Positions 689 through 51,534 of a stretch of 64,000 nt of DNA are shown one piece after another. Below the pieces are notes generated by a model. The model had not been told where the DNA came from, made no database searches, and saw nothing but the letters and a program-made list of their open reading frames with translations. The stretch is taken from the IMG/VR virus record IMGVR_UViG_3300042549_008312, positions 1 through 64,000 of that record; one strand, written 5' to 3'. Both the position numbers and the translations under genes were made by a program. Each line of letters opens with the position of its first letter. Positions within the stretch are counted from its first letter, which is position 1. This DNA comes from a virus.

Positions 689-1111
689 TTAAGCAAGTGT
701 TTTAGCAACTTCTCTGTTAATATCTCGTTCCTTGATACTCGCTCTTTTATCATGCAGTTTCTTACCACGAGCAAGAACAATTTCTATCTTAAAAAGACCA
801 CGTTCATTCTTAAAAATCTTATAAGGAACGATGGTGAGTCCTTTGACTAAATCCTTTTGTAACTTAACCAACTCCTTCTTCTTAAGCAACAACTTTCGAT
901 CTCTGGTTGGTTCGTGGCTATAAGCAGTACCGTTACCAGTTATGTTAATATTTTTAACATAAAGTTCATCACCAACAAAGACACAGAAAGCTTCGGTCAT
1001 TGATATCTTACCATCCTTAATCGACTTCACCTCTGACCCATGGAGTTGCATACCAGCGACCTCAGTCCTGATAAACTCATATTCAAACCTAGCTTTTTTA
1101 TTTACAAACAT
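689..1111 (-). CDS. smpB: SsrA-binding protein SmpB
   Basis: This 140-aa protein is slightly shorter than cellular SmpB (about 150-160). It shows the family landmarks in order: an N-terminal K(K)ARFEYEF strand, the AGMQLHGSEVKSI core (canonical GixLxGtEVKSl), an RDRKLLLKK segment, LARGKKLHDKR and KERD near the C-terminal tail. SmpB binds the tRNA-like domain of tmRNA and brings it to stalled ribosomes; the C-terminal tail occupies the empty mRNA channel. A tmRNA gene is present at 22325-22708, so the phage carries both halves of trans-translation. It overlaps nothing and lies 4 nt downstream of the 1116-1658 gene. Confidence 0.93.
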   Translation of the reverse strand: MFVNKKARFEYEFIRTEVAGMQLHGSEVKSIKDGKISMTEAFCVFVGDELYVKNINITGNGTAYSHEPTRDRKLLLKKKELVKLQKDLVKGLTIVPYKIFKNERGLFKIEIVLARGKKLHDKRASIKERDINREVAKTLA

Positions 1112-4211: not shown

Positions 4212-4778
4212 TTATCCTAAAAATGCGATAATTTTTTCTTTGATACCAGATTGTTTAATACCCTCAACACCACTTGGTGTGAGTACGAAGTTATCCAACC
4301 CCCAGTCTTTCCATGATTCACCGTTCTTACCCATATCAAGGTCATCAACTGAAACCCAATGAGTAATCTCAGGGTGATCGTGTAGATACTGTTTAATTTC
4401 AATAACACGAGTCATCTCCAAGTCCCATCGCGGTGACCATATCCAATTATTATACCATGTACATTGACCCAAATCTGGTGTCAACGCAATTGGTTTCTTG
4501 ATGATACCTTTGGATTCGTAGTACTCACCCATCTCTTCAAGGTTTGCCCATCGTTTCCAATCAGATGATACAACAATCTCGGCACCTGTCTCTTCAATAA
4601 TTTGATTTAATACTTTAACAGCTTTCTGATTAAAGTTATCGAATCGATATTCAATTGGCATTTCTCTTGTGGTCATAGATAATTTACGGCCGCCCCATTT
4701 TGCTTGTTTCTTAAAACGATTACCCCACTCTGTGGATAGACAGATTACTCCGTCATGATCTAAAAATATAACTTTCAT
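4212..4778 (-). CDS. HAD-superfamily phosphatase, RNA-repair (SAK) type
   Basis: 188 aa. Motif I is FLDHDGV at residues 5-11 (nucleophile Asp and acid/base Asp), motif II is VVSSDWKRW, and motif III is an acidic VDDLDMG. The layout matches HAD domains found in Swiss-army-knife RNA-repair proteins, related to the 3'-phosphatase of T4 Pnkp. It likely removes phosphate from RNA ends before ligation. Neighbouring gene 4780-5352 is a paralogue, one nt away. Confidence 0.75.
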   Translation of the reverse strand: MKVIFLDHDGVICLSTEWGNRFKKQAKWGGRKLSMTTREMPIEYRFDNFNQKAVKVLNQIIEETGAEIVVSSDWKRWANLEEMGEYYESKGIIKKPIALTPDLGQCTWYNNWIWSPRWDLEMTRVIEIKQYLHDHPEITHWVSVDDLDMGKNGESWKDWGLDNFVLTPSGVEGIKQSGIKEKIIAFLG

Positions 4779-4779
4779 A

Positions 4780-5352
4780 TTAATAATTTAATTCTATTAC
4801 GGTTTTTTCCAACATTGCTTTTGCTATTTCATAATAGTGTTGGTTAAACCCATCTTTATTTCTTGGCGATGGTAGTACATGAACAAAATGATTTCTTTGG
4901 TTGTATAACATATCAGAATCATCATCTATAATTATATAATTCTCAATACCAGACTCGTCCATTCTTTTTTGTTGTTCTTCTTCTGACCAGTTTATATTAT
5001 GGAATTTCAAATCATTTTCTAAAAAGTGTTTAATCTCCATACCCCTTGGTATGTTTATACCTGAAGTTCTTATTGAAGGTGTGACACCTATAATATTACC
5101 ACTCATGTTTTCAAGATCCCATACCTTTCTCATAAACTCAATACCGCTATGTCTCCAGGTTGATGATATTACAATCTTCGCACCAGTTTCATCAATGAGT
5201 TTATTCAATAGATCTTTGCTACGAACACAGAACCTTTGGTAATGGTCTTTACGACCATCTTCCCAAATCCATTCTTGGTATTGACACTCACCACCACGGT
5301 AAGCGTTCTCACAGTTTAAAACACCATCTATGTCCAAAAAGATTACTTTCAT
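4780..5352 (-). CDS. HAD-superfamily phosphatase, RNA-repair (SAK) type
   Basis: 190 aa. FLDIDGVLN at residues 5-13, VISSTWRHSG as motif II and IIDDDSDM as motif III. It is the second of two adjacent HAD proteins and differs clearly from the first, suggesting separate substrates. Its start overlaps the stop of the exonuclease gene by 4 nt (ATGA), so translation is probably coupled. Confidence 0.8.
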   Translation of the reverse strand: MKVIFLDIDGVLNCENAYRGGECQYQEWIWEDGRKDHYQRFCVRSKDLLNKLIDETGAKIVISSTWRHSGIEFMRKVWDLENMSGNIIGVTPSIRTSGINIPRGMEIKHFLENDLKFHNINWSEEEQQKRMDESGIENYIIIDDDSDMLYNQRNHFVHVLPSPRNKDGFNQHYYEIAKAMLEKTVIELNY

Positions 5353-6029
5353 GCGTACTGAGTCCTCAATAGTTTAACGATATCCATAGCATCATCAATG
5401 GCGTTGTGTGTAACATGTGGGTCCAAATGTGCACGCTCTTTGCAAAGCGACAGTCCTGGGATAGCCTCATCATTCTTCCAGTCAACAAATAAGATTGATG
5501 GATCGATTGTTCTACCTCTAGCTCTTAACACTTGTTTCCATCTTGGTAACCTTTCCAAGAACTTGTTATCAAAGTTCGCAAAGTTCTTACCAGCACCGTT
5601 AAAGTAATACGGTTTCATCTTTGATGTCAACATTGGATATGTTTTACCATTAACAACCTCAACCATTCTATTTGGGTCAAACAACTCAGGACCACCGTCC
5701 AAAGCTTTGTGATCATATAAGAAATGGAATATTCTTTTGGTTACGTTTTCTTCGGTAAGATATTCACGGCCAGTCTTGACTTCAATCTCTTTACGTTCTA
5801 AGGCAGTCTTAGCTATTTTATAACTAAGGATATCAGAAATGAGATCTCTGTTCATGTTAAGAGCAAAGATCTCACCTTCCAATCTTTCATGTATGATGGC
5901 AATCTCAAGTTTGGGTAATTCTTCAAATGGTTTTAGGTTGTTGGTGTCTTCGACAACCAACCCTATTGACAGTGTTTGGGTGTTCTCACCCAAACCTGTT
6001 GTTTCTATGTCAATGCTTACGTATGTCAT
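5349..6029 (-). CDS. DEDDh 3'-5' exonuclease (DnaQ/RNase T-like)
   Basis: 226 aa. Exo I is SIDIETTGLG at residues 5-14, Exo II contains FANFDNKFL, and Exo III is HNAIDDA with the catalytic His five residues before Asp. DEDDh enzymes trim DNA or RNA 3' ends. In this operon, between a ligase and phosphatases, an RNA-trimming role is plausible but not shown. Its start base is shared with the ligase stop (6029). Confidence 0.85.
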   Translation of the reverse strand: MTYVSIDIETTGLGENTQTLSIGLVVEDTNNLKPFEELPKLEIAIIHERLEGEIFALNMNRDLISDILSYKIAKTALERKEIEVKTGREYLTEENVTKRIFHFLYDHKALDGGPELFDPNRMVEVVNGKTYPMLTSKMKPYYFNGAGKNFANFDNKFLERLPRWKQVLRARGRTIDPSILFVDWKNDEAIPGLSLCKERAHLDPHVTHNAIDDAMDIVKLLRTQYA

Positions 6030-7048
6030 TATTTTTCGTTTAATAAAAATTTATTTGAAATTGCTTTGAAGCTGATCTTTCTATCCATACTTCTAATAAC
6101 AACACCCTCTCTATCGAACCTATCATTAAGAACTGATTTACCATCAGCATAAGCCAACATCTCATCAATTGTTTCTGGTAGTTTCATTGTAAGGTTTGTT
6201 AAAAATGGTACGGTTTCCAATTTTAACCCGTGTTGCATGGTAGCCAAGAACATTGGTAATCCATAGTAAGTTTGAAAATCAATGTCAAATACATTAAAGA
6301 ATTTAACGGTGTGACCTTTAATTTTGTAAGGGTTTCCTTGAATACCCTCTCCAATCAATTCACCTTGTATAGCCAGGTTCCGTCCGTTCTCACGTAACTT
6401 CTCTTCAAGTTTTAACTCACGAGCCACCTTCCAGAAAGTATTACCCTCAGTTTCTTCAAGGTCTAAGTTTCTGGAACAAACACCAAATAGATCATCTCTT
6501 AAATAGAACGTTGCAGAGCTACCATCAAGTTTTTCAGTTACATAGAAATCCAAACCTTCCTCAACCCATTTTGCGTAGTCTTTGGTTAGATTCTGCACAC
6601 GCTCCTCATCTGTCTTATGTAAGAAACCTGGGAAGTTACCACGAACCTTACCAGCAAGTTCAGCTGGGATAGGTGGTTCGTATTTAACGATAGCCAATCT
6701 CTCGGTAACATCAAGACCTTCATACGCTGTCCAACCAAAGTCTCCGAAGACACTCATAGGTAAGATCAAACCTTGTGAAACTTGTCCACGAAGTCTAATC
6801 GTTTTAAGACGGAAACCTTCTTGGTCACCCATTCTTTTAAATGAACTCTTACGCAAGAACTCAAACTCTTCTCTAACAGGTAGAAATGAGTCGATCTCAC
6901 AGTAAACTACATGGTCACCAACTTTGTGACCAACATTCTTTGCTACAACAACATCCCAGTTGTTGATACGTGCAACTTCAATAGCATCAGCACCCTCAAT
7001 AGGTCTGATATCAGCTATTATTTGTATGCTTGCTAATTTTCTTTCCAT
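6029..7048 (-). CDS. RNA ligase, Rnl5-like (Deinococcus Rnl type)
   Basis: 339 aa. Residues 1-100 resemble the N-terminal OB-type module of DraRnl-like ligases, and the nucleotidyltransferase motif I EKLDGSS places the AMP-accepting Lys at 173. Motif IV-like EGVVIRS and motif V-like SFKAISNKF follow. These ligases join 3'-OH to 5'-phosphate ends, often at nicks in duplex RNA. That is the geometry at the break of the permuted tRNA (32502/32587), where the nick lies inside the anticodon stem. Confidence 0.88.
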   Translation of the reverse strand: MERKLASIQIIADIRPIEGADAIEVARINNWDVVVAKNVGHKVGDHVVYCEIDSFLPVREEFEFLRKSSFKRMGDQEGFRLKTIRLRGQVSQGLILPMSVFGDFGWTAYEGLDVTERLAIVKYEPPIPAELAGKVRGNFPGFLHKTDEERVQNLTKDYAKWVEEGLDFYVTEKLDGSSATFYLRDDLFGVCSRNLDLEETEGNTFWKVARELKLEEKLRENGRNLAIQGELIGEGIQGNPYKIKGHTVKFFNVFDIDFQTYYGLPMFLATMQHGLKLETVPFLTNLTMKLPETIDEMLAYADGKSVLNDRFDREGVVIRSMDRKISFKAISNKFLLNEK

Positions 7049-7332
7049 TCTTTTTTATATATTAATTCCCAATGTTTTCTATATTCTCTAACGTTAATCA
7101 TTTTGATAGGGTATTCCCAATACACATCTTCGTAAGAAATATGAAGGTACAAAACAATTGTTGACGGTGGAACGTAATTATCTTTAGCCCATTTAAATAA
7201 TTGTTTGATGTTCTTTTTTAACCTCATCTTCTTAGCAAAGGTGGGGTAATCACAATCCCAAATTTGTGGGAATGCGCTTAACACACCTCTACCAATACCC
7301 TGGTATCCTATATTAAATACGACTTGTTTCAT
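7033..7332 (-). CDS. Hypothetical protein, 99 aa
   Basis: Not recognised. It is Tyr/Trp-rich with a basic C-terminus. It overlaps the ligase start by 16 nt and touches the kinase stop at 7332, so it is a member of the RNA-repair operon by position. Confidence 0.55.
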   Translation of the reverse strand: MKQVVFNIGYQGIGRGVLSAFPQIWDCDYPTFAKKMRLKKNIKQLFKWAKDNYVPPSTIVLYLHISYEDVYWEYPIKMINVREYRKHWELIYKKEWKEN

Positions 7333-7747
7333 TACAATTTAATTTCGAAACGATCCTTCATTTTTTGTATTGTTTCTTCTGGACAGTCGTGTTCGTTCAC
7401 ACCACCGTGTCTGTTCTCAACGATGATACTGAATACTTTATAGTTCCATTGTTCTGCCAATAGAAAATACGGAACCATTTCCCACTCCTGTGTGAATGTG
7501 TTTGAGACAATGATGATGCTATTATCACCAGTTGTATGGTTCAATAACATCGCTCGTTCAACACTATCTTGACACCACTTATGCGCATCTCTTATTTTAG
7601 CGGGGTTGAATTTATATTCCCCGTCTTCCATAAAATACATGTCGGCTTCAAAATGTGCATAGCCAGCCCCACCAGCTCCCAACAACTTGGCAGTGGTGCT
7701 CTTACCTGATCCAGGTATTCCTCTTAATAATATTAATTCTTTACTCA

Positions 7748-7748
<1 letters not shown>
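7332..7748 (-). CDS. P-loop kinase, polynucleotide 5'-kinase-like
   Basis: 138 aa. Walker A GIPGSGKST lies at residues 10-18; a middle ADMYF Asp and SNTFT segment match the AAA_33/T4 Pnkp kinase-like group (acid residue and lid positions). Short single-domain form, with phosphatase activity supplied by the separate HAD genes. It would phosphorylate 5'-OH RNA ends for the ligases. Start and stop bases are shared with both neighbours. Confidence 0.78.
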
Positions 7749-8078
<330 letters not shown>

Positions 8079-8086
<8 letters not shown>

Positions 8087-8714
8087 GGTGGTCGTATGCG
8101 ATCATTGATCTATTTTCTCTTTTTTCCATTAACTTCAGGATGTCTTTTAATTCGTATGGTTCCATCCCGTTTGAACCATCCATTCCAACGTCCATCATTT
8201 TACCTGGACCAAACTTCAAGTGCGCTGGTAAGTGAACGTGCCCATGCAAATGTATAACCCCTTGGTTAAGGTCATGCCATGATGCAATCGGAAAGTGACA
8301 CAGAACCATTCGGTGAACGTCATGAGAGCCACCCTTATCCACTTTAAGTGTTAAGTAATGGTATTTACTCACAGAAGCAAATAAGCTCTGTATATCCTCT
8401 TTATTTCGATCGATATGGTGGTCATGATTACCAAGCACCAGGTGAATGTTCTGACACATGATTCTGTGTCGAAGTTCAGCGATTCTTTCAAACCCGCCAA
8501 AAGACCAGTCACCCAAGTGAAATAGTATATCGTCTGGACCAACGTTGTTGTTGATCGCATTAACAATCGCAGCGTTCATCTTATCCAAAGATTCAAAATC
8601 CCTGGTCTTGCCCTCATCTGGCCAATTAGACGTAGCACGGCAAATGTTGCTGTGTCCGTAATGTGTATCTGATGTGAACCATACCTTTTGGTCCCTTGCT
8701 ACATTTATTTTCAT
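8079..8714 (-). CDS. Calcineurin-like metallophosphoesterase
   Basis: 211 aa from ATG 8712-8714, chosen because a TATATTTG box lies 4 nt upstream. Metal-binding motifs in order: DTHYGH, GDWSFGG, GNHDHH and HGHVHLP. Such phage proteins hydrolyse phosphodiesters, and some act on RNA 2',3'-cyclic phosphates, which would suit this operon; substrate is not visible from sequence. Confidence 0.82.
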
Positions 8715-8718
8715 ATTG

Positions 8719-8726
8719 CAAATATA
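8719..8726 (-). promoter_or_regulatory. Promoter box TATATTTG
   Basis: 4 nt before ATG 8714; internal promoter inside the RNA-repair operon, predicted leaderless. Confidence 0.55.
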
Positions 8727-8727
8727 A

Positions 8728-8979
8728 TTAAAAATAATCACAACACCAAATTGGTGTTTTTTCACCCACATACCCACCGTGGATATTGTAGTAATAATGC
8801 TCTAAAGCATCTTCTTCTGTCATCCCATCATCAATGATAAGGATGTCAATGATTTTACTCATGGAATAGATAAGTCTACCAGTTTGGTCATCATAACCTA
8901 TGATAGCCTCATCCAATCCATCAGCTTTTAAGAACTCATCCTCTGGATTCTGTTCTATTATTGTTTCTAGCATGCTCAT
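8728..8979 (-). CDS. Hypothetical acidic phage protein, 83 aa
   Basis: Start at ATG 8977-8979 overlaps the ligase stop (ATGA). The sequence contains IIGYDDQTGRLIYS and a DALEHYYYNIHGGY segment, a type of small acidic protein I associate with many large phages, function unknown. Translation probably coupled to the Rnl1-like gene. Confidence 0.65.
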   Translation of the reverse strand: MSMLETIIEQNPEDEFLKADGLDEAIIGYDDQTGRLIYSMSKIIDILIIDDGMTEEDALEHYYYNIHGGYVGEKTPIWCCDYF

Positions 8980-10046
8980 ATTTTTCTGTATTCTGGATAA
9001 ATTAAATCCCAAATTATTTTACTGTGATCTCTTTCGTCTAACATAGTGAACAACAAAGATGGGTGTTTGTACTGTAGAGCATATTGAGCAAAGGTTGCTC
9101 TATATTTTTCTTTTGGTACATTATGGTTTTCCAAACCTTTAACTATTGTATTAAAGATCCAAGTGTATTCTCTTTCAATCGTTTGGAACTGGGTGGTTAA
9201 CTCATCTACATAGACTCTTATCTTTGCGTGAAACTCATCAGGTACATCAACCAATGAAGCCATTAAATCTTCACCGTTGGCCAATGTTTCCCAGATGTTT
9301 CTTGTTGAGAAGTTTGTCATGATTTTGTGTAATCTAACATACTCCTCAAACTTGATCTTAACACGATAACCAGATGGGTAGAATCTGATTACAAATCCTT
9401 CTTTACCAGATTCATTTAAATTTTGGTATCTTTTAAATAAATCTTCAGTTAATGGGTCCATCGAAGTCCAAACAACATCCTCATAGTCTATACCAGAAGC
9501 TCTAAACATAGATTTTGCTGTCGCCCAATTCAACTCAAATTCAGGTGTTGTTGCACCAAGAAATGTTATCATCTCCTCACCGTAGTCAACAACAATCCTG
9601 TTCTCAGGATAAATGATCTCACATAAGTAAGTAACATTAGGAATAAAACGTTTTAAATCGTATTTTGATTTAAGAATCTCCAAACCTTTAACAGCTTGGT
9701 CGGATGTAAACGAACCCCTTGTTGCTAATAACCATTCACCGTTATAGTTAAATAAGATACCCAAAGAACCATCCATTTTTTCTTGGACATATACGTACTC
9801 ACTATCCCATGGAATAACATCCTTATCAATAACCTCTTCGTAGTTAAAGAACTTTGGAAATGGTTTAGCAATCACAGCACCAGAATCATCAGTGACAAGT
9901 CCACGGCATGCGATGGTAACCTCATCCCATAACATTTCGTACTGCACCTTTTCGCTGTAGTTCCAAATTGTCAATGGAAGAGTTGGGTGTGTTTGTTTGT
10001 ACAACAACCCATCTTCGTGATACTTGTTTAATGTTTCTAAGTTCAT
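8976..10046 (-). CDS. RNA ligase, T4 Rnl1-like
   Basis: 356 aa, near T4 Rnl1 length (374). Motif I EKMDGSLG puts the adenylated Lys at residue 90; further motifs include ATRGSF (motif III region), EGFVIRF (motif IV) and YRVKIKFEEY (motif V), with the family signature upstream (ACRGLV). T4 Rnl1 reseals tRNA broken in the anticodon loop by host anticodon nucleases. With kinase and phosphatases nearby this forms a complete heal-and-seal set. Confidence 0.92.
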   Translation of the reverse strand: MNLETLNKYHEDGLLYKQTHPTLPLTIWNYSEKVQYEMLWDEVTIACRGLVTDDSGAVIAKPFPKFFNYEEVIDKDVIPWDSEYVYVQEKMDGSLGILFNYNGEWLLATRGSFTSDQAVKGLEILKSKYDLKRFIPNVTYLCEIIYPENRIVVDYGEEMITFLGATTPEFELNWATAKSMFRASGIDYEDVVWTSMDPLTEDLFKRYQNLNESGKEGFVIRFYPSGYRVKIKFEEYVRLHKIMTNFSTRNIWETLANGEDLMASLVDVPDEFHAKIRVYVDELTTQFQTIEREYTWIFNTIVKGLENHNVPKEKYRATFAQYALQYKHPSLLFTMLDERDHSKIIWDLIYPEYRKI

Positions 10047-22281: not shown

Positions 22282-22324
22282 AATTAAAAAATTAGGGCGA
22301 TACCAAAATAATACCGCCAATTTG

Positions 22325-22708
22325 TGGAGATGAGGGGATTCGAACCCCTGTCTTGTCTAGCCATTAATTAACCCTCGTTCACATGCTTATTCAATTTTTC
22401 TAAACTGACAAACTTCACAATTCCCTTATTTTGACGGTTCGGTTTACTGAGAACTAATCTTCCGCTCGCTTATAAGATAGCGACACATCTTTTTGCAGTT
22501 TTGGGTGACTGTTGTTAGCCAAGCTTTCGCTTAGACTAATTCTAGATCTGCAAACTCAACAGACTGACCATTAAACGTGATGTTTCCGTCAGCATCGATA
22601 TAGCTTTCGCCATTTAAAACTGTATATAGGTTATTAAAGTGTTTCCAATACTAACACTGCATGCATCAAATTAAAGAACGTATCTATCAATCAATTCCAG
22701 TCATCCCC
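22325..22708 (-). ncRNA. ssrA: tmRNA (SsrA RNA), phage-encoded
   Basis: One-piece tmRNA, 384 nt. The ends form a 7-bp acceptor GGGGATG (22702-22708) with CATCTCC; T arm AGGGG-TTCGAAT-CCCCT; discriminator A; CCA not encoded (ACAA). A P2-type helix forms between CGTTC near the 5' end and GAACG near the 3' end. The tag frame lies at 22531-22611. tmRNA rescues stalled ribosomes with SmpB, which is encoded at 689-1111. It is expressed with tRNA-Leu from the box at 22817. Confidence 0.93.
22531..22611 (-). other. tmRNA tag-peptide frame, 26 residues
   Basis: Resume codon GGC at 22609-22611, stop TAA at 22531-22533. The tag begins GESYIDADGN and ends FADLELV. The GES start is like Bacteroidota tags (GE then polar residues, then Y), but it is much longer than the usual 9-10 residues and lacks the terminal LAA/AA proteolysis signal. 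Resume codon is inferred from Bacteroidota tags. Confidence 0.75.
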
Positions 22709-30878: not shown

Positions 30879-30969
30879 TGGCTGACACAGGACTCGAACC
30901 TGCACTGGGCAACCTTACAACCTTTCGGCCTTGGGGGTTTGGGCACCATCCCGCATTACACAGTCAGCC
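30879..30969 (-). ncRNA. tRNA-like RNA without an anticodon loop
   Basis: Acceptor GGCTGAC/GTCAGCC and T arm GCAGG-TTCGAGT-CCTGT are intact, discriminator A. The middle has no 7-nt loop with T33. Instead it can fold into an extended hairpin: AACC/GGTT, CAA/TTG, CC/GG capped by GAAA. A D-like hairpin GGG/CCC precedes it. It sits in the array like a tRNA. Confidence 0.65.
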
Positions 30970-31311: not shown

Positions 31312-31396
31312 AATTATTGCCATGGTCTGCCTCGTAGTACAGACTGTACCCCTTTAAGTGACTCACTAACCCTAGGTGTGGGTAGCATAGCAATTG
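31312..31396 (-). ncRNA. Folded inter-tRNA spacer, cloverleaf-like
   Basis: Closing stem ATTGCTATG/CATGGCAAT (31386-31394 with 31316-31324, one G-U) around three hairpins: ACCC/GGGT, AGTGA/TCACT, GTCTG/CAGAC. Confidence 0.55.
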
Positions 31397-31468: not shown

Positions 31469-31609
31469 AAATAGGACAATGATGGAGTACCCGTCTCGCT
31501 CCAATCTTAATTGCTTCCTGAGTTTTAATGAGGCCTCAGCAAAGGGTGATGAATTCCGATTCCACTCTGGATTGTCGACATCCGTTGAACGGGGAAAACC
31601 ATTGTCTTG
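31469..31609 (-). ncRNA. Folded inter-tRNA spacer
   Basis: Closing stem GACAATG/CATTGTC (31600-31606 with 31475-31481) directly between tRNA ends; inner hairpins GGAT/ATCC, CTGAG/CTCAG within TTGC/GCAA, and GGAG/CTCC. Confidence 0.55.
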
Positions 31610-31681: not shown

Positions 31682-31891
31682 AAATAATTGATGATTCGAC
31701 CACATTTCTTACCAGAGCGGGACAAAGGGGTCTATTGGTATTGTACCCTCATGCACTCAATTGGGATTGCGGCCCCGTGAGTCTCCCGATGCGCCATTGT
31801 CTTTCATTAACTTTTCTCCGTCCTATCTGTTGTGGGATTCTGGCAGTGTTCCCTCAGGATACTCGTTTAATTACTCTTTCATCATCAATTG
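31682..31891 (-). ncRNA. Folded inter-tRNA spacer, 210 nt
   Basis: Perfect 10-bp closing stem AATTGATGAT/ATCATCAATT (31881-31890 with 31686-31695) right next to both tRNA ends. Interior fold not resolved by eye; no gene seen. Confidence 0.55.
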
Positions 31892-32400: not shown

Positions 32401-32476
32401 ATAATTTCGGAATGCGTTTTTTTCAAAGTAGAAGTTTGATTTTGTAAAATTTGCTGAATGCATTCCCATTAAGTTA
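32401..32476 (-). ncRNA. Folded inter-tRNA spacer with anticodon-arm-like hairpin
   Basis: Closing 7-bp stem GGAATGC/GCATTCC (32460-32466 with 32409-32415) around TCAAA-CTTCTAC-TTTGA, a 7-nt loop resembling a UCU anticodon arm. No D or T arm. Confidence 0.5.
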
Positions 32477-32624
32477 AGATAAAATACAGGATGAATTTAT
32501 ACGTGCTCTAACCAGCTGAGCTACCTGGGATGCCGAAGCATTGTCCCAGGGTTGGATTCGAACCAACGACCACGAGGTTAGAAGCCTGAAGTAAATTGCT
32601 GTAACCATCCTCATTATTTTATCT
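32477..32624 (-). other. Flanking helices that close the permuted tRNA precursor
   Basis: Three helices pair upstream and downstream flanks: AGATAAAATA/TATTTTATCT (32615-32624 with 32477-32486), AGGATG/CATCCT (32606-32611 with 32488-32493) and AATTTA/TAAATT (32592-32597 with 32494-32499). Together 22 bp bring 32502 next to 32587. Confidence 0.75.
32502..32587 (-). tRNA. Circularly permuted tRNA-Arg(UCU) gene
   Basis: In transcription order: the 3' half (32587-32544: AGG, loop CTTCTAA, CCTCG, TGGTC, T arm GTTGG-TTCGAAT-CCAAC, CCTGGGA), a 13-nt linker folding as TGC-TTCG-GCA (32531-32543), then the 5' half (32530-32502: TCCCAGG, TA, GCTC-AGCTGGTTA-GAGC, A, CG). Rejoining G28 to A29 gives a 73-nt cloverleaf with every helix and loop of standard length: acceptor TCCCAGG/CCTGGGA and anticodon stem CGAGG/CCTCG, anticodon UCU. 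The base after the acceptor is C. Maturation would need cleavage at both ends, linker removal and ligation. Confidence 0.88.
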
Positions 32625-33265
32625 TATATCTTTCTACCTTTTGACCAACCATTATTTAGGTAATCTTCAAGGTTTTCTTTTTTAATTTTTTTATTAACAC
32701 CATCTTTAGTTATCCAACAAGTTCCGTATTGTGAGTTTTTTTCACCAACACCAATACCTTTACTAGAATTACTCATTTTTTGTTTAGTTTCTTCTGAATG
32801 CGTTTTACCTTCAAAGGTATTGTACTTAATTTTACCCTCTTTGTGACTTTTTTTCATGGTATTACGCAATCTTTCAACAACAACATCCCTATATTCAAGA
32901 TCGTCAAACATTTTTTGTTTATGTGCTTTACCCCCGCAAATTGATCGGTGTCTTTGTTGTTCGTCACTAATAAAACCACCAGTACCACCACCCATTAAAT
33001 TCATACAATTTTTATCAACAAGCATTTCAGGTGTGATGGCAACTTTTTCGGCCTCAATTAATAAATCCCTATTCTCAAAGAATTCAAGTATTTGTTTTTC
33101 ATGGTTTTCAATACCATATTTTCTAATACTCTTTCTTAATCTTCTACCGCTACCTATATAACCATCTTCTAAGTTATCTGCGCTATGCATACCTATATAA
33201 TACCTGTTTGTTACCAAACAAGTTGTTTTATACAAGTAATGTATTGTTTTTTGTTTCCTTGGCAT
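32624..33265 (-). CDS. GIY-YIG homing endonuclease (Seg-like)
   Basis: 213 aa. YLYKTT...YYIGMHS is the GIY-YIG signature, GYIGSGRRLRKSIRKYG follows, and the C-terminus has HSEETKQKMSNSSKG, a DNA-binding repeat (NUMOD3-like), and a CWITKDG segment. Free-standing in the tRNA array; its TAA overlaps the first helix that encloses the permuted tRNA. TATTTATA lies 15 nt before its ATG. Confidence 0.9.
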   Translation of the reverse strand: MPRKQKTIHYLYKTTCLVTNRYYIGMHSADNLEDGYIGSGRRLRKSIRKYGIENHEKQILEFFENRDLLIEAEKVAITPEMLVDKNCMNLMGGGTGGFISDEQQRHRSICGGKAHKQKMFDDLEYRDVVVERLRNTMKKSHKEGKIKYNTFEGKTHSEETKQKMSNSSKGIGVGEKNSQYGTCWITKDGVNKKIKKENLEDYLNNGWSKGRKI

Positions 33266-33533: not shown

Positions 33534-33884
33534 AAATTCGGGATGGATTTTGTTTGTATTTATCCGTTACATGTAATGTGCTGTAACCATCCCCATTTTC
33601 TAATCTGTTACAAAACTAAGAAGTAATTTCTATACTTCCAAATCTTTTTTAAATTTTTTTCATTTTTTTTCTTTTAAACGAAAAAACCCAGAGATCTCTC
33701 CCTGGGTTCCTTATTGTATCTAGTATATTTTTTACTTGAGATTTTTACAATAGGAACCCAGGGCGATTCTCATCACCAAATGTTCTTCCTATATTTGTAA
33801 AGTTTCTCATCGAAATTCTTGTTATTTTCCTATATATACTTCAATTTTACTAAAAGTTTCAAAAAAAGAAATATTTTTTTAAAA
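33534..33884. other. Leader of the tRNA array and terminator region, no gene seen
   Basis: Contains a hairpin GGGATG-GTTACA/TGTAAC-CCATCCC before tRNA-Phe (about 33541-33595), an AT-rich stretch, the terminator at 33685-33708 and a second partial copy of its GGAACCCAGG arm near 33750. A TATATTTG sequence on the plus strand near 33790 has no gene behind it. Confidence 0.5.
33685..33708 (-). terminator. Rho-independent terminator
   Basis: AACCCAG and CTGGGTT arms, T run on the minus strand; ends the unit containing 33885-34352. Confidence 0.75.
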
Positions 33885-34355: not shown

Positions 34356-35945
34356 TTACATTTTAAATGTGGTAAACCCTGTTTCACCACTGTTATCTTT
34401 TATAAAATTAATATGTTGTGCTCTCCCATCTTTATGGATGATCACATGCGATTGTAACCATGAGCTTGGTCCGATATTGTAACCAACTCTTAGTTTTGTT
34501 GAGGTACCAACCGCTAAAGCACCGTCTTTTCTCCCTGGTGAGTGGTAATGACCAACAATGACCTTTGTATTAAGCGTTCTAAACTGATTTAGAGACCCTC
34601 TGCTGCCATTTGATCCAACATCACCATGTTGACCCAACTCCCAATCTTTAACCATGTAAGAAGCGTTCCTATTCAATGTAATGAACTTGGGGAATCTTTG
34701 GTTGATCACCTCAGGTATTACACCTTTAATTTCACCCTTAGCATGCTGTCTCAAAAGCATTGCGGAGTATTCCATGTATACCAATGAGTTTTTGCTTGTC
34801 GGTTGTCTTTTCCAATCCTCATTTGTTAACCAGCGATCCAAAAAGTCATCATGGTTACTTCTAACAATAACAACGTTTTTATAATCTTTGAATGACTCCA
34901 ACCCATCGAGCATGTTATTTATTTCCCTCTCAACAGAATTGGTGCCGTTCATTTCTTTTGCAAATTGAATGAATGGGTTTTTCATTTCATGGTGGCTGAT
35001 TGAGTTGCCATCGAATACGTCATGTAATACAACATGCTCTGGTTTCATCTTGCCTAACAACTCATGTGTCTTATCAATCACATCTTGATCATGATGACCA
35101 TAGTGAATGTCACCAAACACAATTGCTGATAATGAATCAACCTTACTTACCTCTCCACCCTCAACTCTATGACAAAGATCGGTAAAGTTACCAGTCTTAT
35201 CATGTGCGGTTACTTGTCTAACATAGAACGTATCCTCATCCTTAATTTCAACGATGGCAAAACCATATGTGTGATGGAACTCGCCTTTCTTACCAGATTT
35301 TGAATCCGTGTAATTCATCTTTGTTACCGCACCAGTTGTAAGCATCATTTTAGGTTTATTACCCTCAAGAACTGAGATCATCTCAAGTTGTACCTTTGGT
35401 GCTCCAAAGATGCATGAGTTAATACCACTTACACCTTGCAAACCACTCATTGGGTTTGTTGCTGTTGGTTGAATTTTTAAATCTGACATAATTGACACAT
35501 ATTTGTGAACATCATGTCTATTCGCATCCAAATAAGGTACAACAGCGTTATCCCATTCTTCATGATCTTTATCAGTGAACACCGATGTTGGGTTTTTATA
35601 ACGTCCAGCAATTACGTGGATATCAGCACCCAAAAATTCAGCATACGCTTTAATATTTTCAAAGAGTGGTTTATGAACTGGTGTGTCATTCTGAGCCCAA
35701 GTAATAAGGAACATTTTTTGTTCTTTATTAGTCGGTCTTTGTTTGGCCGTCAGATATTGTTCCGATTCAACCTCAACCTTCTCCTTAAAGTTTAATTTTT
35801 CAGAACACCATTTTCTAACTGTTCTTTCGGATTTACCGAATAAAGCCACAAGCGAGTTCATTCTATCATCCCAAGATAACTCCTTATTAAGGTAGATGTT
35901 TCTTGCTTTGTCAATTTCTTGTTCTGTTAAGTCTTTAAATTTCAT
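34356..35945 (-). CDS. HTH plus metallophosphoesterase protein, 529 aa
   Basis: Residues about 25-50 (DRMNSLVALFGKSERTVRKW) look like a helix-turn-helix. The C-terminal half is a calcineurin-like phosphoesterase: FGDIHYGHH, DVFDGN, RSNHDD and GHYHSPGR. Domain order resembles phage DNA-metabolism phosphoesterases such as T5 A1, an inference. Substrate unknown. Confidence 0.75.
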   Translation of the reverse strand: MKFKDLTEQEIDKARNIYLNKELSWDDRMNSLVALFGKSERTVRKWCSEKLNFKEKVEVESEQYLTAKQRPTNKEQKMFLITWAQNDTPVHKPLFENIKAYAEFLGADIHVIAGRYKNPTSVFTDKDHEEWDNAVVPYLDANRHDVHKYVSIMSDLKIQPTATNPMSGLQGVSGINSCIFGAPKVQLEMISVLEGNKPKMMLTTGAVTKMNYTDSKSGKKGEFHHTYGFAIVEIKDEDTFYVRQVTAHDKTGNFTDLCHRVEGGEVSKVDSLSAIVFGDIHYGHHDQDVIDKTHELLGKMKPEHVVLHDVFDGNSISHHEMKNPFIQFAKEMNGTNSVEREINNMLDGLESFKDYKNVVIVRSNHDDFLDRWLTNEDWKRQPTSKNSLVYMEYSAMLLRQHAKGEIKGVIPEVINQRFPKFITLNRNASYMVKDWELGQHGDVGSNGSRGSLNQFRTLNTKVIVGHYHSPGRKDGALAVGTSTKLRVGYNIGPSSWLQSHVIIHKDGRAQHINFIKDNSGETGFTTFKM

Positions 35946-50136: not shown

Positions 50137-51534
50137 TTAAGCTGTTATGCAAGCATAACGTTCGCTATTCACTGTTTTGTTCATGATAGCAACTGGTGTG
50201 AAGTCGTCCCCTGCTAAAAGCGACTTTAAGATCGCTGGAGAGAATCCGCTTACCAGTGCAGTACCGTTTTTACCGAAGCTAACTGGTACGTTATCATGTC
50301 TGCTTTGAATGTTCCAGAACACAATTTTTGGGATTGTGTATCCAGCTTCGCTGTATTTATTTTCAATCATTTTGATAGCCGTTTCATTAGAACGAACAGC
50401 TTGATTGAATTCCATATCTGACATAATCAAGATAGTTGTTGGCATTTCTTCTTGTGGAAGAGAATGTTTAGTAGCTTGATCCAAAATCATTTTGAAAGTA
50501 GCTTCAAGATCTGTACTCATACCCCACTCAGCTCTTTCCAATTGTAGCATTCTGTCAACAATACTACCGTTTAAGTATTGCAACTGTGGGTTTGATGAGA
50601 ACGTAATGAAAGCATCTTTAAATTTACCCACGTTTCTTTCAGAGATATATAACCCCAAAGAAACACAAACATCCATACAAGAAAGATTTTGGTTGTTACC
50701 TGCTGGAGTGCTCATCGAACCCGATACATCACACACTGGTAAAATTCTTTCTTCAGTGTTTGTCAAATAGTTTGGAAGTGATTCCCATTGTTTAGTTCCA
50801 ACAACTTTGTCACCACCGTATCTCAACGACTTTAACACATCATATGGGTACAAAGCACCAGCCTTAATTGTTTTTGCGGTGTTTTTGAACTCATCAAATC
50901 TAACGCTATCGTTTTTAACAAACGCTTTAGTGTATCTTGACATAGCCAAAGATGGTACGTGGTTGTAAGTGATTTGTGACCACTGACCAGCACACATCAA
51001 CTGCTCAACAACTTTGGTTTTTTCTACCAATGATTTACGGTATTCTTTTGGGGATAAACCAAGATGTCTTTCCAAAGCAATTGCTTGCTTACCCTTTCTT
51101 GGCATCCATTTAGCACAAAGACCATCGTTGTTGTTTAAAGCAACCTCAATCAATCCCTTAGCTTGTCCTTCCAAAGGAGTACCAAATAATGACAACATGT
51201 CATCCCAACGACCAAACTCAGGGATATACTGAATATTCTTAGCCAAAGACTCAGAATGATTCTCAGCAAGATATTTAAGGATATCTCTAAATACTTTTCT
51301 TTCACCAGCACCAGAGCGTGCATCTCTAGCCCAAAAAAGAATTCTTAAAGCGGTTACAGGGTTTTCGTTAAAGGCTTTGCTATATTTAGCAATTAACCTG
51401 CCGACATCTTGACCACGCATTGCACCTATTACAAAGAATAAGTCAACACATGCATTCAAAGATGATGAATTAGTAACCATACCATTTTCTGTGGTGGTAT
51501 TTTCTGTTCTTAAAGCGTCAACGAAACGTGTCAT
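50137..51534 (-). CDS. DUF2828 / Ro60-like protein (helical repeats plus VWA)
   Basis: 465 aa. Residues about 25-240 are helical repeats with DUF2828 landmarks (ILFWARDARSGAGERKVF, IPEFGRWDDML, CAKWMPRKGK, LGLSPKEYRK). Residues about 262-465 are a von Willebrand A domain with MIDAS DVSGSMS near 268. The layout parallels Ro60/TROVE proteins, which ring-bind misfolded RNAs and Y RNAs. Promoter box TATATTTG with a 25-nt leader. A structured RNA follows immediately. Confidence 0.82.
   Translation of the reverse strand: MTRFVDALRTENTTTENGMVTNSSSLNACVDLFFVIGAMRGQDVGRLIAKYSKAFNENPVTALRILFWARDARSGAGERKVFRDILKYLAENHSESLAKNIQYIPEFGRWDDMLSLFGTPLEGQAKGLIEVALNNNDGLCAKWMPRKGKQAIALERHLGLSPKEYRKSLVEKTKVVEQLMCAGQWSQITYNHVPSLAMSRYTKAFVKNDSVRFDEFKNTAKTIKAGALYPYDVLKSLRYGGDKVVGTKQWESLPNYLTNTEERILPVCDVSGSMSTPAGNNQNLSCMDVCVSLGLYISERNVGKFKDAFITFSSNPQLQYLNGSIVDRMLQLERAEWGMSTDLEATFKMILDQATKHSLPQEEMPTTILIMSDMEFNQAVRSNETAIKMIENKYSEAGYTIPKIVFWNIQSRHDNVPVSFGKNGTALVSGFSPAILKSLLAGDDFTPVAIMNKTVNSERYACITA

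Follow-up and report, generated by a model that had tools for sequence, protein, structure and literature searches.

Both permuted tRNA genes and Y RNAs that resemble tRNAs have been described before. A review of the permuted genes lists cases from algae and archaea only, with junctions at 20/21, 37/38, 50/51 and 59/60 (PMC3978253). The genes of algae and Thermofilum place the 3′ half first, carry a linker between the acceptor ends and leave the arms intact, and a linker of 1 nt occurs in an accepted Thermofilum gene (PMC3978253). The permuted two-piece tmRNA gene likewise has a spacer that joins the acceptor ends, and some phage and bacterial tRNA genes hold group I introns as inserts in the anticodon arm. 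YrlA, a bacterial Y RNA and partner of Ro60/Rsr, consists of a permuted tRNA-like domain (T arm, acceptor hairpin, D arm) whose stalk is made from the two ends of the RNA, and the tRNA-like part of Salmonella YrlA has been suggested to inhibit an anticodon nuclease in a decoy role (PMC7790460). For a Listeria P100-like phage with a Ro60-like protein, three very abundant unannotated RNAs near tRNA genes have been proposed to be Y RNAs (PMC12282133). Our literature search returned no description of a permuted tRNA that has its break at 28|29, a full anticodon arm, a linear twin and a home in phages with Ro60-type proteins. Phage Y RNAs near Ro60 were reportedly described by Chen et al. in 2014 (RNA 20:1715), and that work may show some copies of the element described here.

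The window, as we call the whole 64,000-nucleotide stretch analysed, comes from a 165,848-base virus record in IMG/VR. On its minus strand lies an element (32475..32626) made of a stalk and a permuted tRNA-like domain, kept in the related loci L005, L018, L019, L020 and L034. Read 5′ to 3′ on that strand, it begins with the outer stalk helix strand UAAGAUAAAAUA (32615-32626, pairing with UAUUUUAUCUUA at 32475-32486), the stalk helix P1 strand AGGAUG (32606-32611, pairing with CAUCCU at 32488-32493) and a junction strand, GUUACAGCAAUUUACUUC, which carries a CNGCA motif and adjoins nt 29 (32588..32605). The tRNA 3′ half follows (nt 29-72; 32544..32587), with the anticodon arm AGG CUUCUAA CCU, the T arm and the acceptor 3′ strand, and then the linker CAAUGCUUCGGCA (32531..32543), which closes the acceptor stem with a UGC-UUCG-GCA hairpin and whose length among relatives ranges from 1 to 22 nt. 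The 5′ half (nt 1-28; 32502..32530) supplies the acceptor 5′ strand, the D arm and nt 27-28, and is followed by a second junction strand, UAUAAAUU (32494..32501), which is UAAAA/UAUAAA-like in nearly all copies, and by the 3′ strands of P1 and the outer helix (32475..32493). Joining 32502 to 32587 (28|29) gives a 73-nt canonical class I tRNA shape with the anticodon loop CUUCUAA and stems of 7 bp (acceptor), 4 bp (D), 5 bp (anticodon; CGAGG/CCUCG, 27-31/39-43) and 5 bp (T). The fold z-score is −4.85, and none of 200 shuffles was equally stable. The initial annotation had proposed the reversed order of the halves, the 73-nt product with canonical arms and the UUCG hairpin in the linker, and direct reading of the minus strand bears out all three, coordinates and arm lengths included.

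That annotation also had the flanks pair over 10+6+6 bp, so that the break is held in place. Both the outer helix and P1 covary, are conserved and do hold the break, but the middle 6 bp (AAUUUA/UAAAUU) are not conserved, and in their place is an asymmetric internal loop with the conserved CNGCA motif. The outer helix in L005 is AAUAAAACA/UGUUUUAUU, with one pair changed and pairing kept, and P1 in L018 is AGGGUG/CACCCU against AGGAUG/CAUCCU in the window. The junction is a three-way stalk with a one-sided loop and not a bulge-helix-bulge. A break in the anticodon stem had been called unusual, and 28|29 is indeed absent from the junction types of the review (PMC3978253). ARAGORN did not call the permuted gene in the window, Rfam matched neither a ribozyme nor a group I intron in the element, and a BLAST of the element against named phages returned mostly ordinary tRNA halves, with no record spanning most of it. 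An ORF with NUMOD3 motifs and a GIY-YIG-like start (32624-33265, minus strand) is inserted directly before the element, its stop at 32624 falling within the outer stalk helix. A homing-endonuclease origin was considered and rejected, as this ORF is missing beside the element in L005, L019, L020 and L034, where the element is kept.

The initial annotation knew of no permuted tRNA gene in phages. This one is no phage singleton; the permuted gene recurs in at least 16 phage records, as 18 distinct sequences from phages of several bacterial groups. A pattern scan gave five contigs that are nearly identical, plus L005, a diverged relative, and loci reached through a neighbouring protein (window 34356-35945) gave four further permuted genes in the same place (L018, L019, L020 and L034), each of which differs in the acceptor stem, T stem or linker. 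A scan for the 5′ half only, AGCTCAGNNGGNNAGAGCACGTANAA, found 25 stretches, and a matching 3′ half was found for 24. The 3′ half lies upstream (permuted) in L041, L042, L045, L055 and the window family, and downstream, interrupted at the same site (linear), in L038, L039 and L047-L054. The AGCTCAGNNGGNNAGAGCACGTANAA pattern carries no information on the 3′ half and is therefore a fair test of the 3′-half partner. The pattern does prescribe CG at nt 27-28; the copies identified by other means (Vibrio Glu and Pro, L039 Cys, L055 Gly and the actinophages) are likewise broken at 28|29. L046, which fits the search pattern and has no clear stalk, was excluded. The phage of L045 (record G010) has a second permuted tRNA (L088, ~16174, minus strand) with the anticodon loop GUGGGGA and a break nearer 30|31, so there is some latitude in where the break falls.

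A covariance check proposed with the initial annotation came out in its favour, with both halves and the flank helices changing together in relatives. Across the 18 permuted genes, 99.2% of cells are paired compared to 68.5% when shuffled and at most 44% when slid, although the scanner by which most copies were identified demands paired stems, a requirement that raises the paired percentage but leaves the diversity of pairs unaffected. The covariation score is 0.82 versus 0.20, and the acceptor, anticodon and T stems covary. Changes on both sides were seen at 15 of 21 pairs, including pair 28-42 across the permuted junction, while 27-43, the other junction-spanning pair, is invariant. Within the same gene 123 of 126 acceptor pairs are formed, compared to 3.4 of 7 after the halves of different genes have been exchanged, and the match is therefore not due to chance. 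It is important to note that only copies read by eye were used, as model R1 gives many 20-45-bit matches that are tandem ordinary tRNAs, as are several near 50 bits.

Linear counterparts were found in other phages. The Vibrio phages D479 and D482 and the KVP40-like phages nt-1, V09 and phi-Grn1 each have several linear stalk-bearing tRNA genes, which where annotated appear as tRNAs of 110-124 nt and become canonical once a hairpin insert of 38-49 nt at 28|29 is removed. The Vibrio insert starts with UA..AA, forms a single hairpin and ends in CNGCA plus about ten bases; in some Vibrio copies it apparently sits in the anticodon loop instead. Linear inserts overall measure 38-59 nt and share the 28|29 site and the flanking motif of the permuted form, and the permuted gene is the linear insert gene with its hairpin loop opened. 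Rfam matched no group I core in the linear copies with these 38-59 nt inserts; a group I intron or small ribozyme was rejected as a candidate, Rfam having given no support. The linear copies share an anticodon-arm insert with group I intron tRNA genes, but differ in their insert size, in the missing group I core and in a site in the stem and not the loop. Permuted copies are present in the Microbacterium phages Big4, Zooman, Pumpernickel, SM23 and FuzzBuster, Gordonia phage VanLee, Mycobacterium phage Phabba, Klebsiella phage KP13-16 and the Felix-O1-like E. coli phage wV8. Read by eye, the wV8 copy carries the UUUACAGCA motif and has its halves in permuted order, with a less regular anticodon stem and a break that can be placed only approximately.

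Other stalk elements accompany these genes. In the window, one precedes tRNA-Arg (32409..32467, minus strand; GGGAAUG...CAUUCC, UUCAGCA), where the hairpin UCAAA-CUUCUAC-UUUGA resembles a bare anticodon arm, and another precedes tRNA-Phe (33540..33594, minus strand; GGGGAUG GUUACAGCA ... CAUCCC). Stalk elements such as GAAAGCG UUACUU ... CGCUUUC lie upstream of linear stalk-bearing tRNA-Asn genes in L038 (10499-10700, minus strand), L053 and L060, and one in L038 has a bare anticodon-arm-like hairpin, CAGACUGCAAAUCCGUU, comparable to that at 32409-32467. The tRNA region of wV8 has a further ACAGAAGACCGUUUACAGCAA stalk element (L125, from 990 on) in which a hairpin replaces the tRNA body, and in a tRNA-like gene of L005 (2568-2689) and L020 (15075-15196) a stalk (CAUCC AGUGU GGAUG AUUUCAGCA) replaces the recognisable anticodon arm. 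A tRNA-like RNA at 30880-30969 (minus strand) of the window has a perfect acceptor and T arm with a GGCCGAAAGGUU hairpin instead of a normal anticodon arm; it is kept in relatives, including L015 and L019, and ARAGORN misses it. Long inter-tRNA spacers at 31312-31395, 31469-31609 and 31682-31890 (minus strand) are closed by end helices (e.g. AAUUGAUGAU/AUCAUCAAUU), the core AAACUCANGAAGCA...UUGG of the second being common to L005 1960-2080, and the spacers are possibly further structured RNAs. In L021, from a relative of the window phage, ARAGORN calls a tRNA-Pyl with a CTA anticodon (219-294), a possible amber suppressor tRNA.

The initial annotation named the product tRNA-Arg(UCU). This label is doubtful because the anticodons of relatives at the same locus are AUU (L005, L018 and L034), GUU (L019) and GUC (L020) and because position 73, which is C, or U in relatives, is unfitting for Arg, Asn and Asp; the Ro60 link and YrlA matches described below also speak against it. 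Ordinary Asp(GUC) and Arg(UCU) tRNAs next to the element retain their anticodons, and between close relatives the tRNA body of the element stays constant while the anticodon differs. KVP40-like loci also switch anticodon (UUC, UCU and UCA; AGG and UAG). Discriminators were scored with one lenient table of bacterial discriminator bases. None of the six window-family copies had a fitting base, and overall 7/19 permuted and 6/20 linear copies fitted compared to 188/208 ordinary tRNAs (Fisher p 2e-7 and 4e-9), in a test framed after the data had been seen and on records that are not phylogenetically independent. The L055 pair (Gly UCC with U73 and Met CAU with A73, both with 17-nt AU-rich linkers) and the Big4/Zooman copies (Thr UGU with A73) look like usable tRNAs, and since the L055 and Big4 discriminators fit, some copies may still be working tRNAs. 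Compared to the permuted genes of algae and Thermofilum, the phage element differs in its 28|29 break, the lack of a bulge-helix-bulge, its bacterial virus host and its unfitting anticodon and discriminator. It also differs from the permuted tmRNA in not being a tmRNA; the phage has its own unpermuted one (22322-22708, minus strand; Rfam 69 bits) and a protein that looks like SmpB by sequence (689-1111, minus strand), giving a full trans-translation pair.

Comparison to YrlA brought the element closer to Y RNAs. Several permuted copies match the YrlA model (Rfam RF02553) at 30.8-41.2 bits, the window copy at 38.1, below the gathering cut-off of 69. Both have the permuted tRNA-like domain on a terminal-end stalk, a short closed acceptor loop, similar CUA and GUA at the junction and a Ro60-type protein in the genome. 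The phage element differs in its CNGCA stalk motif, its linear counterparts and a full anticodon arm with a normal 7-nt loop; this arm is present in 18/18 permuted copies and is handled as a 13-nt insert in the YrlA alignment, in which the stalk strands align poorly.

The proposed binding partner in the window is a DUF2828/DUF7788 protein (50137..51534, minus strand) that profile and structure comparison assign to the Ro60 (TROVE + vWA) fold. A model built from a 12-sequence alignment (pLDDT 77; a single-sequence model at pLDDT 39 was unusable) gave TROVE/Ro60 structures as best Foldseek matches over its full length (~490 columns, E 2.6e-9 to 5e-5), among them the Trove domain 9kop, Ro60 of Thermus phage phiLo and human Ro60. 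The DUF2828 profile matched TROVE chains in the PDB (E 4e-4) and aligns with phage TROVE proteins in the vWA region. The predicted structure, with a TROVE HEAT ring and vWA fold, identifies DUF2828 as a Ro60 relative. A Ro60-type gene turned up in all carrier records of useful size but G010 (L045) and G018 (L134), both possibly incomplete; G018 was initially a Ro60 negative control, turned out to hold a permuted copy and is counted as an exception, and G002 and G005 are small fragments. TROVE genes occur in Big4, Zooman, Phabba, SM23, Pumpernickel, FuzzBuster, VanLee, the L038 family and L055, and DUF2828 in the window genome, G001, G003, G004, G008, G009 (weak), G013, D479, D482, nt-1, V09, phi-Grn1, KP13-16 and wV8; the background frequency of DUF2828 is 681 of 50,697 phage records. 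The copy adjoins a gene named Ro-like RNA binding protein in FuzzBuster and VanLee and an RNA-binding-protein gene in TROVE-bearing SM23, and lies shortly downstream of DUF2828 in KP13-16 and wV8, while in the window 17.5 kb separate the element from the DUF2828 gene, a difference from YrlA-type genes, which neighbour the Ro60 gene. CNGCA within 20 nt before nt 29 was present in 12/12 DUF2828 records and 1/13 TROVE records, most of which have GUUAC or GUUAU in its place (Fisher p 2.7e-6, only indicative because the pattern had been spotted before the count was made and relatedness makes the records non-independent). Such a match between motif and protein is what would be expected if the protein bound at the junction loop.

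Since this design recurs in many unrelated phages with Ro60-type proteins, we lean towards the element being a Y-RNA-like tRNA mimic that keeps its anticodon arm intact and is probably bound by the phage Ro60-type protein, and not an ordinary tRNA gene; the Ro60-type link and the YrlA matches both indicate a mimic. A Y-RNA-like particle, in which the stalk would bind the Ro60-type protein and present the tRNA shape, is the most economical model. A stalk inserted into the anticodon stem at 28|29 would carry a complete tRNA shape with its anticodon arm. Where the gene is permuted, the 5′ and 3′ ends of the transcript would make the stalk and the short linker would seal the acceptor stem, while in the linear version of other phages the stalk would be a closed hairpin inside a normally ordered tRNA. 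The internal loop by the break (CNGCA in the window) may be read by the Ro60-fold DUF2828 protein to form a particle like that of Ro60 and Y RNA. Its most likely use would be as a decoy or tether showing varied anticodon arms to host anticodon nucleases, a role to which a quickly changing anticodon would be suited; alternatively, it could recruit tRNA-handling enzymes to the particle. We infer from the comparisons that the element is transcribed, bound by the protein, left unspliced and used as a decoy.

The main competing reading, which we consider possible though doubtful, is that of a true permuted tRNA gene in which the stalk would be an intron with its loop opened, with the linear genes as ordinary intron-containing versions and a working tRNA as the result. 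An endonuclease would cut at 28|29, a kinase, phosphatase and RNA ligase of the phage would join the ends into a circle, and RNase P and a 3′ nuclease would open the linker. The joined halves are canonical, the cut site is common to permuted and linear genes, the L055 and Big4 discriminators fit, and the window holds RNA repair genes on its minus strand (4212..10046), namely two HAD_SAK_2 genes (4212-4778 and 4780-5352), an RNA_ligase with an OB fold (6029-7048), an AAA_33 kinase (7332-7748) and an Rnl1-type ligase (8976-10046). We keep this reading in play because ligases are common in carriers and the exons fit so well. RNA ligase was itself considered and rejected as the shared factor: in a survey of carriers other than the actinophages, KVP40-like records and KP13-16/wV8, most large ones have a ligase, but from different families, making it less specific than the Ro60 link. 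Linker length was dropped as proof against maturation, given the 1-nt linker of Thermofilum, a point that favours splicing (PMC3978253). Weighing against a working tRNA are the anticodon switching and unfitting discriminators in most copies, Rfam results without a ribozyme or group I intron match, a three-way stalk junction instead of a bulge-helix-bulge, a junction motif that follows the Ro60-type protein, and closed acceptor loops of 3-5 nt in copies next to Ro genes. The mimic has points against it as well: the ligases in most large carriers, G010 and G018 without a Ro60-type gene, the usable-looking L055 and Big4/Zooman copies and the 17.5-kb distance. It is rather unlikely that the stalks are tiny (38-59 nt) phage tRNA introns spliced by protein enzymes with a Ro60-type helper and that the window holds the permuted form of one; the bacterial YrlA Y RNAs would then derive from permuted tRNAs of this kind that lost the anticodon arm. 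Membership in the YrlA family itself, as an unusual Y RNA for which the Rfam model is too narrow, would account for the same permuted order, the 31-41 bit matches, the Ro60-type protein in the genome and the phage Y RNAs said to lie near Ro60 (Chen et al. 2014), but seems improbable when the YrlA consensus lacks the anticodon arm that all 18 copies have, every score is below the cut-off of 69, linear counterparts exist and the stalk strands align poorly. Tandem arrays do yield neighbouring 3′ and 5′ halves and the window is a tRNA array, yet a functionless, degenerate relic of tandem tRNA duplication is very improbable, being already refuted by the covariation in 18 sequences unless the alignment is wrong, and the stalk is conserved and the break site constant.

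The element joins three things that have been studied separately: permuted tRNA genes, interrupted tRNA genes and the Y RNAs of Ro60. Permuted and linear stalk-bearing genes are missed or mislabelled by current tRNA finders. Cultured carriers are available for E. coli (wV8), Klebsiella, Vibrio (nt-1, V09 and phi-Grn1), Mycobacterium smegmatis (Phabba) and Microbacterium (Big4). These elements suggest a possible origin of the bacterial tRNA-like Y RNAs and, with their fast-changing anticodon, are a specific candidate for a decoy that phages could set against anticodon nucleases.
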